A stretch of DNA of 64,000 nt, taken from positions 62,001 through 126,000 of the forward strand of contig NZ_ANBB01000022.1 of assembly GCF_000341105.1 (NCBI RefSeq). The letters are read 5' to 3'. The position numbers and the translations under genes were made by a program. Positions 2,841 through 63,170 of this stretch are shown one piece after another. The notes below the pieces were generated by a model. The model had not been told where the DNA came from, did not search any database, and saw only the letters and a program-made list of their open reading frames with translations. Within the stretch, counting starts at the first letter, position 1. Each line of letters starts with the position of its first letter. Origin of the DNA: Nocardiopsis potens DSM 45234 (GTDB lineage: Bacteria > Actinomycetota > Actinomycetes > Streptosporangiales > Streptosporangiaceae).

Positions 2841-3335
2841 GTGACCGAGCAGGAGGGCAAGTCCCCGGCGCCCCGGCGGAACCACGCCGCGCCGGTGCTC
2901 GACGAGACCGCCAAGCGCATCATCGAGCAGCTCCAGGAGGACGGCCGGCGCTCCTACGCCGCGATCGGCAAGGCCGTCGGGCTCTCCGAGGCCGCCGTGC
3001 GGCAGCGCGTGCAGCGGCTGCTGGAGACCGGGGTGGTGCAGGTCGTCGGGGTCACCGATCCGATGATGCTGGGCTTCAGCCGGCAGGCGATGATCGGGGT
3101 GCGCTGCGACGGCGACCTGACCGCGGTCGCCGACACCATCGCCGACCTGGACGGCTGCGAGTACGTGGTGGTCACCGCCGGCTCCTTCGACGTGCTGGTC
3201 GAGGTGGTCGCGGAGGACGACGAGCGGCTGCTGCGGATCCTCGGCTCGATCCGCGCCGTGGAGGGCGTCCGCTCCACCGAGAGCTTCCTCTACCTCAAGC
3301 TCCGCAAGCAGGCCTACGCCTGGGGAACGCGCTGA
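2841..3335 (+). CDS. Lrp/AsnC-family transcriptional regulator
   Basis: A 164-residue protein with an N-terminal AsnC-type winged helix (VLDETAKRIIEQLQEDGRRS, then AAIGKAVGLSEAAVRQRVQR) and a C-terminal RAM/AsnC ligand-binding domain ending in the typical RSTESFLYLKLRKQAYAWGTR. Such proteins form octamers and respond to amino acids. The GTG at 2841 is preferred over the upstream in-frame start at 2709 because GGAGGAG sits just before it and because homologues begin near here. It follows pucR in the same direction and probably belongs to the same catabolic cluster. TAGTTT at 2750-2755 is a possible -10 element, without a clear -35. Confidence 0.9.
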   Translation: MTEQEGKSPAPRRNHAAPVLDETAKRIIEQLQEDGRRSYAAIGKAVGLSEAAVRQRVQRLLETGVVQVVGVTDPMMLGFSRQAMIGVRCDGDLTAVADTIADLDGCEYVVVTAGSFDVLVEVVAEDDERLLRILGSIRAVEGVRSTESFLYLKLRKQAYAWGTR

Positions 3336-21649: not shown

Positions 21650-22033
21650 TCAGGCCACCCCCCGGTCGTGCCGGAGGTAGGCGCGGCCGTCCCTGCGGAC
21701 CAGCACGCCGATCACGTCGACCCGGGTGCGCGGCGGGGCGGTGCGCCGGTTCTCCTCCCGCCACAGCCGGGCCAGCCGCCGCAGCCGTCTGCGCTTGCCC
21801 CGGTCGACCGCCTCCAGCGGCGTGCCGAACCGCAGCCCGGTGCGGGTCTTCACCTCGACCACGATCAGGGTGCCGCCCCAGCGGGCGAGGATGTCGATCT
21901 CGCCCTCCCGGCACCGCCAGTTGCGCGCCAGGATCCGCAGCCCGGTCCGGCGCAGGTGCGCCGCGGCCAGGTCCTCCCCGTACCGGGCGAGCGCCGCCCG
22001 GCTCCAGGCCCGCTCCCGCGTCTCGAAGCCCAT
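21650..22033 (-). CDS. YraN-family (UPF0102) nuclease-like protein
   Basis: A 127-residue member of the restriction-endonuclease-like fold. GEDLAAAHLRRTGLRILARNW, then the acidic GEIDIL and IVVEVKTRTG give the D...ExK set of the fold. The cellular role is not settled in any bacterium. The ATG giving MGFETRERAWSRAALARYGE is selected from homologue starts, and GGAGG lies about 13 bases upstream. It abuts comM, as in most actinobacteria. Upstream the usual neighbour DUF2469 is separated by 1.4 kb of repeats. Confidence 0.88.
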   Translation of the reverse strand: MGFETRERAWSRAALARYGEDLAAAHLRRTGLRILARNWRCREGEIDILARWGGTLIVVEVKTRTGLRFGTPLEAVDRGKRRRLRRLARLWREENRRTAPPRTRVDVIGVLVRRDGRAYLRHDRGVA

Positions 22034-22155
22034 CTCCGACCACCTCCGCCCTCCACGGTGACCGCTCCGCCCCCACCGCGGGGAACCGATCCGCCGCCTG
22101 TGGACAGCCCCCTGTGGACGAGCGTGCTCCGGCGACGGGTGGACGGCACCATGCG

Positions 22156-22560
22156 GCGGCGACGGCAGAGGTAGGGGCGTGGCGAAGGCGATCACCCGAG
22201 CGCGGTGCCCCACGGGGTCGGGGTTCAAGCTGGCAGCGACGGCAGGGAGGGGGACCGGCCGGTCGGTCCGGCGCGGCGCATCGCGGAGTGCAGGTTCAAG
22301 CGAGCAGCGACGGTGGGGAGGGGGACCGGCCGGTCGGTCGGGCGCGGCGCCTCACCGGGTGACGGCTCAAACCGGCGGCGACGGCGGGAAGGGGCGGGGT
22401 CGGGCGCCCCGGCCGGGTGCGAGCCCCACGGAGCGAAGGTTCAAACGGGCAGCGAAGGCAGCAGTGGGGCGGGGCGAAGGTGGTCGCCCGGGCGCGGGCC
22501 CCACGGAGCGGGGGTTCGAGCAGGCGGCGACGGCGGCGGTGGGCACCGGCCGGTCGGTCG
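22156..22560 (+). repeat. left array: five to six ~71-75 bp tandem repeats
   Basis: The word GGTTCAA (or GCTCAA, GGTTCGA) recurs with its TTC anchor near 22224, 22295, 22366, 22440 and 22515, a spacing of 71, 71, 74 and 75 bp. Each copy has GGCAGCGACGG-like sequence about 12 bases later, and most have ACCGGCCGGTCGGTC before the next copy. A partial copy precedes them (GCGGCGACGGCAGAGGTAGG, 22156-22175). The units are too diverged, and indels of 3-4 bp occur, so they do not behave as a coding repeat. Confidence 0.8.
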
Positions 22561-22706
22561 GGTGCGGCAGAGCAGATGGGGGCGGTCGGAGTGAGCCGGG
22601 GCGGCGGGATCGCCGCGCCCGCGTCGCCCGGGCGCCGGGGCCGGCCGCCATCGAAACCACCACCCCTCTCCGACCTGGGCAAATACGCAGGGTGATGGTG
22701 GGATGA

Positions 22707-23012
22707 GGCGCCCTGCGCACCGCGAGAGCACCCCGGTGATTCCTGGGCGCGCATCCTGGGCCGGATCGCCCCCTGGCAGGCCCGGTTGGGGCCGATCGGG
22801 CCGGTGTTCGGGGATTCGAGCAACCCGGAAGGCCGCAAAGCAGGGGGCCGGAACCCAGGGAGGGCAGAAGTGGGGGCGGTATGACGCTTTTGTTCTCCCG
22901 AGGGAGCCCTACTTGGCCACTCTGGGTAATCGACGAGGGGGTGGTGGAGGCTTCGAGGCTTACTACTCGCTGGTAGATGCAATCGAGGTGCTGCGGAGGT
23001 GCGCAGGGCGCC
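22707..23012. repeat. lower-GC core bounded by 26-nt inverted repeats
   Basis: GGCGCCCTGCGCACC (22707-22721) plus AGCACC (22727-22732) is mirrored by GGTGCT (22987-22992) plus GGTGCGCAGGGCGCC (22998-23012). Twenty-one of 26 positions pair and both inner gaps are five bases. The 254 bp between them is richer in A and T (for example ATGACGCTTTTGTTCTCCC) than anything around it. No convincing reading frame or transposase lies inside. Confidence 0.6.
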
Positions 23013-23109
23013 CCCGCCCCCGCCCGTTCCTCGCCGCAAACCAGGCAGATAGGGATAAGGCCCCCTGACGGACCCGGGCGGCGCGGGCCGGCCCGCGCCG
23101 CCGGGGCGC

Positions 23110-23335
23110 CGCCCTGCTCCCCTCGCCGGGAGCACGCGCCGGGCCCGGCCGGTGAACGCGGCGCCCGGCCCGCTCCCCCCTCGCCGCCCGCTCGAACCTG
23201 CACTCCGCGGGGCGCCGCACCCGACCGACTGGCCGGTCCCCCTTCCCCGCCGTCGCCGCCCGTTTGGACCTTCCCCCGTGGGGCGCCGTGCTCAACCGGA
23301 GTGCCCGACCACGCCCCTACCACTGCCGTCGCCGC
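23110..23335 (-). repeat. right array: the same repeats in inverted orientation
   Basis: On the minus strand the same unit appears three times (GCGAC/GCGAG anchors at about 23328, 23252 and 23181, spacing 76 and 71-72 bp) and probably a fourth, decayed copy at about 23110. The outermost 27 bases, 23309-23335, match the complement of 22156-22182 at 26 of 27 positions, and the following 35 bases have the same length before GCCCCACGGGG in both arms. Confidence 0.78.
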
Positions 23336-23442
23336 CCCGCCCCGTCCCTTCTCCCCCCTCTGCGGTTCGGGGAGGGGCCGGGAACGGGTGAGGCGGGGGC
23401 CGCGGTGCGGCCCCCGCCTCGGGTCGGGTCGGTGTACCGGGG

Positions 23443-23769
23443 TCAGCTCTGCGGGCGGCCGCCCGGGGGGACTTCGAGGTCGGACTTGGTGATCTCTTCG
23501 ACGTTGACGTCCTTGAAGGTCACCACTCGGACGTTGCGCACGAACCGGGCCGGGCGGTACATGTCCCAGACCCAGGCGTCCTCCATCGCGACCTCGAAGT
23601 ACATCTCGCCGTTCTCGGTGCTCCTCGGCTGCAGATCCACGTGGTTGGTGAGGTAGAACCGGCGCTCGGTCTCCACCACGTAGCTGAACAGGCCGACGAC
23701 GTCGCGGTACTCCCGATAGAGCTGGAGCTCCATCTCGGCCTCGTACTTCTCCAGGTCCTCAGAACTCAT
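23443..23769 (-). CDS. DUF2469 family protein
   Basis: A 108-residue acidic protein. MSSEDLEKYEAEMELQLYRE, VGLFSYVVETERRFYLTNHV, and DAWVWDMYRPARFVRNVRV followed by FKDVNVEEITKSDLE are near-invariant blocks of an actinobacterial family found between lepB and yraN. No function is known. The short length, strong conservation and lack of membrane segments point to a cytoplasmic housekeeping role. The ATG is chosen at the conserved N-terminus. The frame is open further upstream without homology. Confidence 0.92.
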   Translation of the reverse strand: MSSEDLEKYEAEMELQLYREYRDVVGLFSYVVETERRFYLTNHVDLQPRSTENGEMYFEVAMEDAWVWDMYRPARFVRNVRVVTFKDVNVEEITKSDLEVPPGGRPQS

Positions 23770-45652: not shown

Positions 45653-45714
45653 GGTGCTCTCGACGCCGCGGCCCTGCCAGAGCGCTCTGGCAGGGCCGCG
45701 GCGTCGAGAGCACC
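45653..45714. terminator. perfect 62-bp palindrome between recG and rsmD
   Basis: Thirty-one bases from GGTGCTCTCGACGCCGCGG to CCAGAGC are followed at once by their exact complement. No loop is left unpaired at the centre beyond what a hairpin turn needs. It begins 16 bases after the recG stop and is the longest perfect palindrome seen in the window. A terminator role is likely. Confidence 0.75.
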
Positions 45715-61835: not shown

Positions 61836-63170
61836 TCAGCCCTCGCTGTCGGCTCTGAGGTCGAGGCCCTCCACCGCCAGGTGGTCGGCCTCGGCCACCG
61901 GGCGGGAGACGTCGACGTTGGGCACCGGGATGTGCGAGGGCAGCAGCGGCGGCGGGAAGTCGGGGGTGAAGGTGATGGGGATGCCGAGGATGGTGATGGT
62001 CAGCGACCGGACGTGCATGACGATGTCGCCGCCGTCGGTGCCGGAGAGGTTCATCGAGGGCAGCGCCAGCGAGGCCCGGGACTCCCCGTGCCGCCACCAC
62101 AGCTCGCCGTCGGTCACGTCGCCCTCGGTCATCACGATGCGCAGGTAGCGCTCGGGGCCGCTGCTCGCGGGGTACTCCACCACGCCGCCGAACCGGGCGC
62201 CGCGCATGGTCAGCCACTCCGCGGTGAGGCCGGACTCGGCGTCGGAGGCGGTGAACGGGCCGTCCTCCCCCTGGACCACCGGTACCTCGGGGGACTCCCC
62301 GGCCTCCCGGGCCGCCTGGCAGGCCCGCACCGCGTCGAGGAGCTCCTCCTCTCCGGCGGCGACCGACTCCTCGCCGGTGCGCAGCTCGCACTCGGCGGGG
62401 TCGGCGCCGTCCGCGGGAACGTCGCCGGGCTCCTCCGACTCCTCCCGCTCCTCCCCGGGCTCTTCTCCGCCCCCTTCCTCCGGGTCCCCGCCGCCCGGCT
62501 CCTCCCCCGGTCCGCCGGGCCGCTCCGAGGCGGACGGGGAGGGCGAAGGCGACGGGCTGGGCGAGGCGCCGGGGTCGGCGGGGGCGCTCTCCTCGCCGTC
62601 ACCGCCGCCGCCGAACCAGTCGTCCCACGGCCAGCGGAAGTCGGCCGGCGCGGCCGCGGGCAGCACCAGCAGCAGCGCGATCGGCGCCGCCGCCAGGGCG
62701 CGCGGCCGGCCGCCCTCGCCGTCCGCCCCGGCCCCTTCGGCTCCGGTCCCGCGCGGGCGGCGCGCCCGGCGCCGGCCGCCCCGCGGCCGGGCCGGCTCCC
62801 AGGAGAAGACCAGCGCCCCGCCCACGATGCCGAGCAGCATCCCGATCACGAAGCCGCCGAAGTTCGCCGTGACGAACGAGGCGATCGAGAGCAGGGTGCC
62901 CACCACGCCGTAGAACATCCGCTGCTGCGGCTGCACCCAGACCAGCAGGCCCAGTGCGATCAGCAGCAGGCTGACCAGGTAGACGGAGATGCCCGCGATG
63001 CCCGCGTAGATCACCAGGTTGAGCGGGAGGATCAGGCTCTGCGCCGACGGGGCGACGAGCATCTCCACCGCGGCGATGATGAGCAGCAGGCCGCCCCAGA
63101 AGGGGCGGCTCCGCCGCCAGTCGCGGAAGGCGCGCAGCGGGCCGCGGCGCGCGGTGCTGTCATCGGCCAT
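61836..63170 (-). CDS. DUF6114 membrane protein with a long C-terminal extension
   Basis: A 444-residue protein. Four membrane segments in the first 125 residues (PFWGGLLLIIAAVEMLVAPS, LPLNLVIYAGIAGISVYLVS, NFGGFVIGMLLGIVGGALVF) form the DUF6114 core found beside DUF6230 in streptomycetes. A fifth hydrophobic stretch (APIALLLVLPAAAPAD) precedes a long Glu/Ser/Pro/Gly linker (about 185-245) and an extracellular domain of about 175 residues with two cysteines (ECELRTGEES, VRACQAAREAG). The extension has strands such as PERYLRIVMTEGDVTDGELW and SLTITILGIPITFTPDFPPP. Start three bases after the DUF6230 stop. Function unknown. Confidence 0.8.
   Translation of the reverse strand: MADDSTARRGPLRAFRDWRRSRPFWGGLLLIIAAVEMLVAPSAQSLILPLNLVIYAGIAGISVYLVSLLLIALGLLVWVQPQQRMFYGVVGTLLSIASFVTANFGGFVIGMLLGIVGGALVFSWEPARPRGGRRRARRPRGTGAEGAGADGEGGRPRALAAAPIALLLVLPAAAPADFRWPWDDWFGGGGDGEESAPADPGASPSPSPSPSPSASERPGGPGEEPGGGDPEEGGGEEPGEEREESEEPGDVPADGADPAECELRTGEESVAAGEEELLDAVRACQAAREAGESPEVPVVQGEDGPFTASDAESGLTAEWLTMRGARFGGVVEYPASSGPERYLRIVMTEGDVTDGELWWRHGESRASLALPSMNLSGTDGGDIVMHVRSLTITILGIPITFTPDFPPPLLPSHIPVPNVDVSRPVAEADHLAVEGLDLRADSEG

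Follow-up and report, generated by a model that had tools for sequence, protein, structure and literature searches.

Many copies of a foldback-like, non-coding mobile element, some with IS30-like ends, in Nocardiopsis potens and a sister species

Between yraN and the DUF2469 gene of Nocardiopsis potens DSM 45234 lies an imperfect palindrome of about 1.2 kb, in which tandem repeats at its two ends face each other, and the question that it raises is whether such a structure is a private oddity of this spacer, a structured RNA or protein-binding array, or part of something mobile. The window analysed is the stretch of 64,000 nucleotides at positions 62,001 to 126,000 of contig NZ_ANBB01000022.1, and all coordinates refer to it. 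A sequence-only reading of the window had described two inverted repeat arrays between the two genes, and these are real (22155-22568 and 23201-23336). Genomes compared were the organism's own (G000), that of a sister species (G004), and those of the other four congeners (G001, G002, G003, G005). The features of the locus are as follows.

21650-22033, minus strand: yraN, left neighbour (start codon approximate), from the ORF list; adjoins DUF2469 in relatives
22107-23391, no strand: approximate extent of the insertion against two congeners without the element (G003, G002), from the break in homology
22155-22568, plus strand: left array, six units of ~67-76 bp (unit HMM, -536 to -123 relative to the core; TRF)
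22569-22690, plus strand: left spacer, conserved among own-genome copies (alignment of these copies)
22691-23030, plus strand: conserved non-coding core, ~340 bp (whole-genome searches; no codon periodicity, mainly 1-nt indels)
22708-22721, plus strand: 5' arm of the 14-bp stem closing the core, partner 22998-23011 (pairing over 46 copies)
22725-22742, plus strand: internal hairpin of the core with compensatory changes (alignment of copies)
22963-22976, plus strand: nearly invariant motif CTACTCGCTGGTAG, a short hairpin, used for the copy count (alignment of copies)
22998-23011, plus strand: 3' arm of the core-closing stem (pairing over 46 copies)
23031-23200, plus strand: right spacer, conserved over the ~40 bp next to the core, variable further on, and ending in a partial inner minus unit at ~23175-23200 (repeat search, alignment)
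23201-23336, minus strand: right array, two full inverted units (unit HMM, +510 to +645 relative to the core; inverted repeat)
23443-23769, minus strand: DUF2469 gene, right neighbour, from the ORF list; protein 95-97% identical in Streptomonospora, by which the genus was judged Streptomonospora-like

By repeat search, the plus-strand array appears at 22207-22568 as a 71-bp unit repeated five times (at spacings of 71, 71, 74 and 75; TRF score 223), and a unit HMM trained on the array raises this to six, in agreement with the five to six units first proposed; of the three to four units proposed on the minus strand, two full ones and a partial innermost one were found. The core-proximal unit of the left array is truncated at unit position 55, as it is in most copies. 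Inverted arms of 78 nt (83%), 84 nt (77%) and 73 nt (73%) join the two sides, and the outermost arm, 28 nt at 96% (22155-22182 / 23309-23336), bears out the near-identity noted for the outer ends. What had been missed is the conserved core of ~340 bp between the arrays. The pattern is far beyond chance, because the same anatomy is present at more than 60 other loci. The comparison of this spacer in sister species, which had been proposed as a check, revealed a shared site in G004 and no insertion in G003 and G002: homology to G003 ends at 22106 and restarts at 23392, with 257 unrelated bases in between in G003, and the yraN-DUF2469 gap measures ~370-620 bp in species without the element family. 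No tRNA, tmRNA or known RNA family was found at the locus, and the covariance models of Rfam 15 gave no match, even at E values up to 5.

The locus belongs to a large family. Searches of its own genome with the core returned, among the matches listed, at least 40 near full-length copies at 82-87% identity in addition to the query (100%), and G004 yielded at least 40 core matches by BLAST, most of them more diverged copies. A 17-base core motif occurs 126 times in G000, 18 times in G004 and in none of the other four congeners; the reversed motif pattern, searched as a control, occurs in neither G000 nor G004. Of the 343 family genomes, 2 (G000 and G004) contain a two-part motif, so that by motif search the element was found neither in the four other species of the genus nor in the 337 other family genomes. 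Collections of phage, viral and plasmid sequences contained no similar sequence. The suggestion of a repeat family related to mobile elements is thus upheld by more than 126 scattered copies in the own genome, and the view that the repeats had expanded at this place is not: the locus is one copy among these, and its conserved part is the core and not the arrays. Nor is it a private oddity, for which absence from close strains and from the rest of the genome had been named as signs; four of the five congeners do lack the element, but copies abound in the own genome.

The count of at least 126 is a minimum, since the G000 assembly is broken by the family itself; contigs C1, C18, C27 and C38 begin or end inside copies, which accounts for several of the assembly breaks. 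In 864 kb of chunks (400 kb of G004 and 464 kb of G000 including the window), 22 core-bearing copies were found, with arrays converging on the core in almost all, plus two array-only fragments; the two G000 contigs in this survey had been chosen for having hits and were not extrapolated from alone. Correcting the motif count for copies that it missed in the chunks, we estimate that G000 holds ~130-160 copies, or ~2-3% of the genome at a typical 1.3 kb per copy.

Nearly all of 69 sampled copies (42 own, 27 from G004) follow one plan of plus-strand array, spacer, core, spacer and inverted array, which is the foldback-type anatomy of long inverted termini of tandem repeats around a middle region. 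The elements are about 1.0-1.7 kb long, roughly 1.3 kb being typical, and the spacers too are conserved within G000. Several sampled copies are cut by contig ends; exceptions to the plan are L122, with no detected right array, L182, with only one right unit, and L121, with an insert of ~2 kb in the right spacer between core and right array. L121 was considered as an autonomous copy and rejected, as its insert appears to be a passenger: at the edge of the element the insert opens with GGCTCTTCG, as ISL3-type ends do, and the coding sequence within it was read as a putative ISL3-type transposase.

The core does not encode a protein. Its first, second and third codon positions vary equally and 1-nt indels predominate, leaving no codon periodicity, and neither a transposase nor any other conserved open reading frame is present in the element, so the non-coding reading stands. 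Minus-strand frames that are open in many copies were dismissed as high-GC noise on the same evidence. On its plus strand the core folds better than its shuffles (z -4.8, 0 of 100 as good), and the other strand reaches z -2.3. The closing stem is paired in 90.8% of cells over 46 copies, with two-sided changes at 4 of its 14 pairs, and the internal hairpin carries compensatory changes from GU/AU to CG/GC at two pairs and AU/GU/GC at a third. Together with a short third hairpin these elements form standard pairs in 87% of cases over the 46 copies, and their covariation exceeds that of 500 out of 500 shuffles, which ignore the relatedness of copies; the independent changes are few, and most of the two-sided changes may reflect a single subfamily difference. 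An RNAalifold consensus over the whole core was weak (-19.9 kcal/mol), and only the closing stem and one hairpin were retained from the structure. Conserved core positions are clustered beyond column permutations (4 of 2000 as clustered). The core may therefore be a structured RNA: the closing stem and one hairpin, with covariation above the 500 shuffles, speak for it, and the few independent changes and the weak global consensus against it.

Copies lie between genes, with a preference for gene 3' ends. Of 60 copies whose context a GC-frame heuristic could score, 25 lie between convergent, 32 between tandem and 3 between divergent genes. As a raw count, divergent pairs are clearly few, as would be expected if insertions into promoters were purged.

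Occupancy was compared between G000 and G004. Sites shared by both, with flank homology on at least one side, are that of the window copy (L173) and those of L137/L118, L139/L117, L159/L179, L142/L186, L149/L184 and L162/L168; L171/L201, L122/L202 and L135/L262 are additional shared sites, and arrays are shared at L169/L203. Other sites are occupied in one species. At L183, G004 carries a single insertion of ~1.5 kb where G000 has 7 bp between the matching flanks, and the G004 sites corresponding to G000 copies L163, L112, L113, L147, L161, L133 and G000:C27:174090 contain neither core nor unit. The G004 gap at L165 is long, yet has no core or unit either, and at L172 the G000 site is without an element between the flanks and has another copy just beside it. 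Calling occupancy by gap size alone was abandoned, as it misleads for L170 and L165, where long gaps hold no core or unit; the sister sites, L199 (G000) for L170 and L261 (G004) for L165, have more than 1 kb of different sequence in the element's place. Strict site conservation with concerted evolution only, which eight shared sites had suggested, is ruled out by the empty sites. Dispersed copies and insertion presence/absence between close relatives, the marks of MITE-like elements, are thus both found. The family is a genuine one of mobile, non-coding elements in many copies, foldback-like in anatomy and with ends like those of IS30 where these are preserved.

It is unlikely, though worth weighing, that these loci are today domesticated sites, that is, structured RNA or protein-binding loci at gene 3' ends (terminator-like, nucleoid or replication-related) which the host keeps and which an old mobile phase dispersed. 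Such a role would fit the strong avoidance of divergent promoters (3 of the 60 scored contexts), the better fold of the plus strand of the core (z -4.8 vs -2.3), the clustering of conserved motifs and the persistence of shared sites between species. It is opposed by the absence of the element from four congeners and the 337 other family genomes, by the many lineage-specific sites and by the lack of an Rfam match, and purifying selection against insertion would likewise deplete divergent gene pairs.

Outer modules and ends were located with seeded HMMs, an all-against-all BLAST of flanks having been swamped by GC-rich coding matches. About 25 flanks of 68 copies have a sharp edge, consisting of a ~34-bp half-site of a palindrome, here called PAL, followed by an end a, beginning GGTGGTTTCCAGTGTCCGTTGCAACACCG..., or an end b, beginning CTTGCCGTCAAGTGGCCGTTGCAACGAGG...; in four of these flanks (L166, L172, L120, L134) complete palindromes stand beside the array instead. 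At the window copy neither end a or b nor a PAL half was detected, nor was module B, an outer module beginning GAGAGRCCGCCGGGTATGCGGTCGACTC... that stands in place of the PAL/IS30-like ends in many copies of G004 (L170 right, L179 left, L183 left, L186 left and right). PAL is an abundant, near-perfect palindrome of 56-64 bp with paired variation, and its half-sites number 115-124 per genome in G000 and G004 and are at background level in the other four congeners. One solo PAL lies in the window:

45656-45711, no strand: solo PAL, 56-bp near-perfect palindrome (PAL search); PAL half-sites form the outer ends of well-preserved copies

Among the unoccupied sister sites, a solo PAL or remnant is clear at two and partial at two, and none was seen at those of L163 and L112. 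The junction at the PAL centre, GCGC, is itself palindromic, which makes any reading of a 2-bp target-site duplication there ambiguous, and outer junctions elsewhere are decayed. One element copy (L268) has a further PAL within its right spacer (947-1012), so PAL disperses on its own. L266, taken up as a possible autonomous element bounded by PALs, resolved into two distinct PALs, each almost complete, with ordinary genes between them.

The ends point to IS30. When the genomes were searched for this family, G004 (fragments), G001, G002 and G005 gave IS30 matches, whereas the IS30 transposase model (NF033563) had no match in the whole G000 genome or in G003; no IS30-type DDE transposase lies inside the element. 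An intact IS30 copy in G002 matches end a at each of its two inverted repeats (83% over 29 bases, 88% over 24), the G004 IS30 copies also match it (86% over 29), and end b aligns with sequence adjoining IS30 matches in G001 (80% over 35); for either end, 0 of 100 dinucleotide shuffles aligned as well. At L272 in G004, one unpaired PAL half borders a broken gene whose product matches the Pfam rve and HTH models below their curated cut-offs and the NCBIfam IS30 transposase model above its cut-off; at this broken IS30 copy and at a second one (L297), the junction with a PAL half is that seen in the element. Beside the L272 copy (2966-3041), a stretch of ~45 bp contains ends a and b with next to nothing between them, perhaps a minimal form of the element. 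The intact IS30 copy of G002 splits a terminator-like hairpin, whose two arms flank it. IS30 is known to use near-palindromic hot spots, inserting at the central 2 bp with a 2-bp duplication (PMC9333248). Judged from these alignments, an IS30-type transposase is most likely the mobiliser, now gone from G000 or unassembled there; with no IS30 match in G000 and only fragmented copies in G004, it has to be deduced from ends of 24-35 bp. The earlier remark that no transposase is present therefore holds for the locus and, as regards IS30, for the genome, but the ends of preserved copies point to an IS30-type enzyme all the same.

PAL might instead be the minimal form of the family, a MITE consisting of terminal repeats only, the large copies then being PALs that enclose arrays and core, moved by a transposase that recognises PAL and not inserted into it. 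The two genomes to which PAL is confined are also those of the element, the large copies begin sharply at the outer edge of PAL, and the solo PAL within L268 has dispersed by itself, all of which would suit such an origin. We nevertheless consider it improbable: the match to IS30 ends is to the sequence just inside the PAL half and not to the half itself, the IS30 copies themselves sit at PAL halves, and solo PALs are near-perfect hairpins, whereas the two halves around one element often differ.

Copies within a genome appear to have been made alike. At the window site, flanks are 92-95% identical between the species and the cores 67%, and the window core averages 83.5% identity to other own-genome copies. 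Mean core identity is 84.7% within G000 (in a sample biased toward copies like that of the window), 70.3% within G004 and 70.0% between the two, and cores cluster by genome, not by site. In near-identical core pairs at different sites, identity falls stepwise in the arrays, at points specific to each pair; at two distant G004 sites, L168 and L169, identical cores lie in a 700-bp identity tract with diverged arrays around it. Since cores resemble those of their own genome over their ortholog and identity fades into the arrays, these comparisons point to homogenisation by ectopic gene conversion, although recent transposition followed by fast array turnover may have left the same traces. At the shared site L149/L184, the right flank in one species lies left of the core in the other, and because the flank sides are swapped the core is read as inverted there; in line with such inversion, either end, a or b, may be found to the left or to the right of the core. 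An old dispersed repeat that has not moved recently, with ectopic gene conversion and array recombination as its sole means of homogenisation, would accommodate the missing IS30 transposase of G000, the broken G004 copies, the mean divergence between copies of 15% (G000) and 30% (G004) and the conversion-like tracts, but is doubtful, as sites occupied in one lineage call for insertion, or for many losses, after the species split.

We therefore favour, as the probable account, that the locus belongs, as one of many copies, to a non-autonomous, foldback-like transposable element moved by an IS30-type transposase. The element would comprise terminal IS30-type inverted repeats, inverted tandem arrays of a ~73-bp unit and the conserved structured core. 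An IS30-family transposase would act on it in trans by copy-out/paste-in, with insertion at the centre of hairpin palindromes, namely PAL and probably similar hairpins; the arrays would offer homology for ectopic gene conversion and core inversion, and would themselves grow and shrink by unequal exchange. It counts against the IS30 part of this account that ends were seen in so few flanks, that many G004 copies carry module B, that a solo PAL or remnant stands at only some unoccupied sister sites and that the window copy has no recognisable ends. That the core is kept in nearly every copy suggests that the element may require it in cis in order to propagate, perhaps in the form of a structured RNA or a protein-binding site. 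A bolder version, to which we give little credence, has the core as a functional RNA or protein-docking DNA required in cis by the IS30-type transposase itself, and the arrays as a recombination device that flips the core and spreads its variants. Were the core such a required RNA or docking site, the family would be a non-autonomous bacterial element with a non-coding cofactor. The two sister species, with some shared sites and separate homogenisation, could serve to measure how fast insertion, ectopic gene conversion and core inversion proceed.

The family is new in its combination of parts. With MITEs and other non-autonomous IS derivatives it shares non-coding sequence, IS-like inverted ends in a subset of copies, high copy number, intergenic location and a mobiliser that would act in trans; unlike typical MITEs, it is far larger (about 1.0-1.7 kb) and contains inverted tandem arrays and a conserved core, and no published IS30-derived element of array-core-inverted-array build was found in the literature searches made. 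PAL recalls REP/BIME sequences as a short intergenic palindrome that would serve as an insertion site, a likeness by description only, PAL being a simple palindrome of 56-64 bp; IS elements of several families target REPs, IS30 not being in the list of that survey (PMC1525189). The parallel with E. coli IS30 and its near-palindromic hot spots lies in ends that match the IS30-family ends of congeners, but the element has no transposase, and the match extends over 24-35 bp at about 80-88% and is to the IS30 of the congeners. In overall build it resembles the foldback and Galileo transposons of eukaryotes, in which long inverted termini carry variable numbers of tandem repeats and which undergo ectopic exchange and inversions (PMC4168063), and it has non-coding copies as they do; the likeness is of anatomy and implies no relation, for the element is bacterial and its ends are IS30-like and not of the P superfamily. 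By anatomy, then, this entirely non-coding element appears to be the counterpart, in a compact actinobacterial genome, of the eukaryotic foldback elements.
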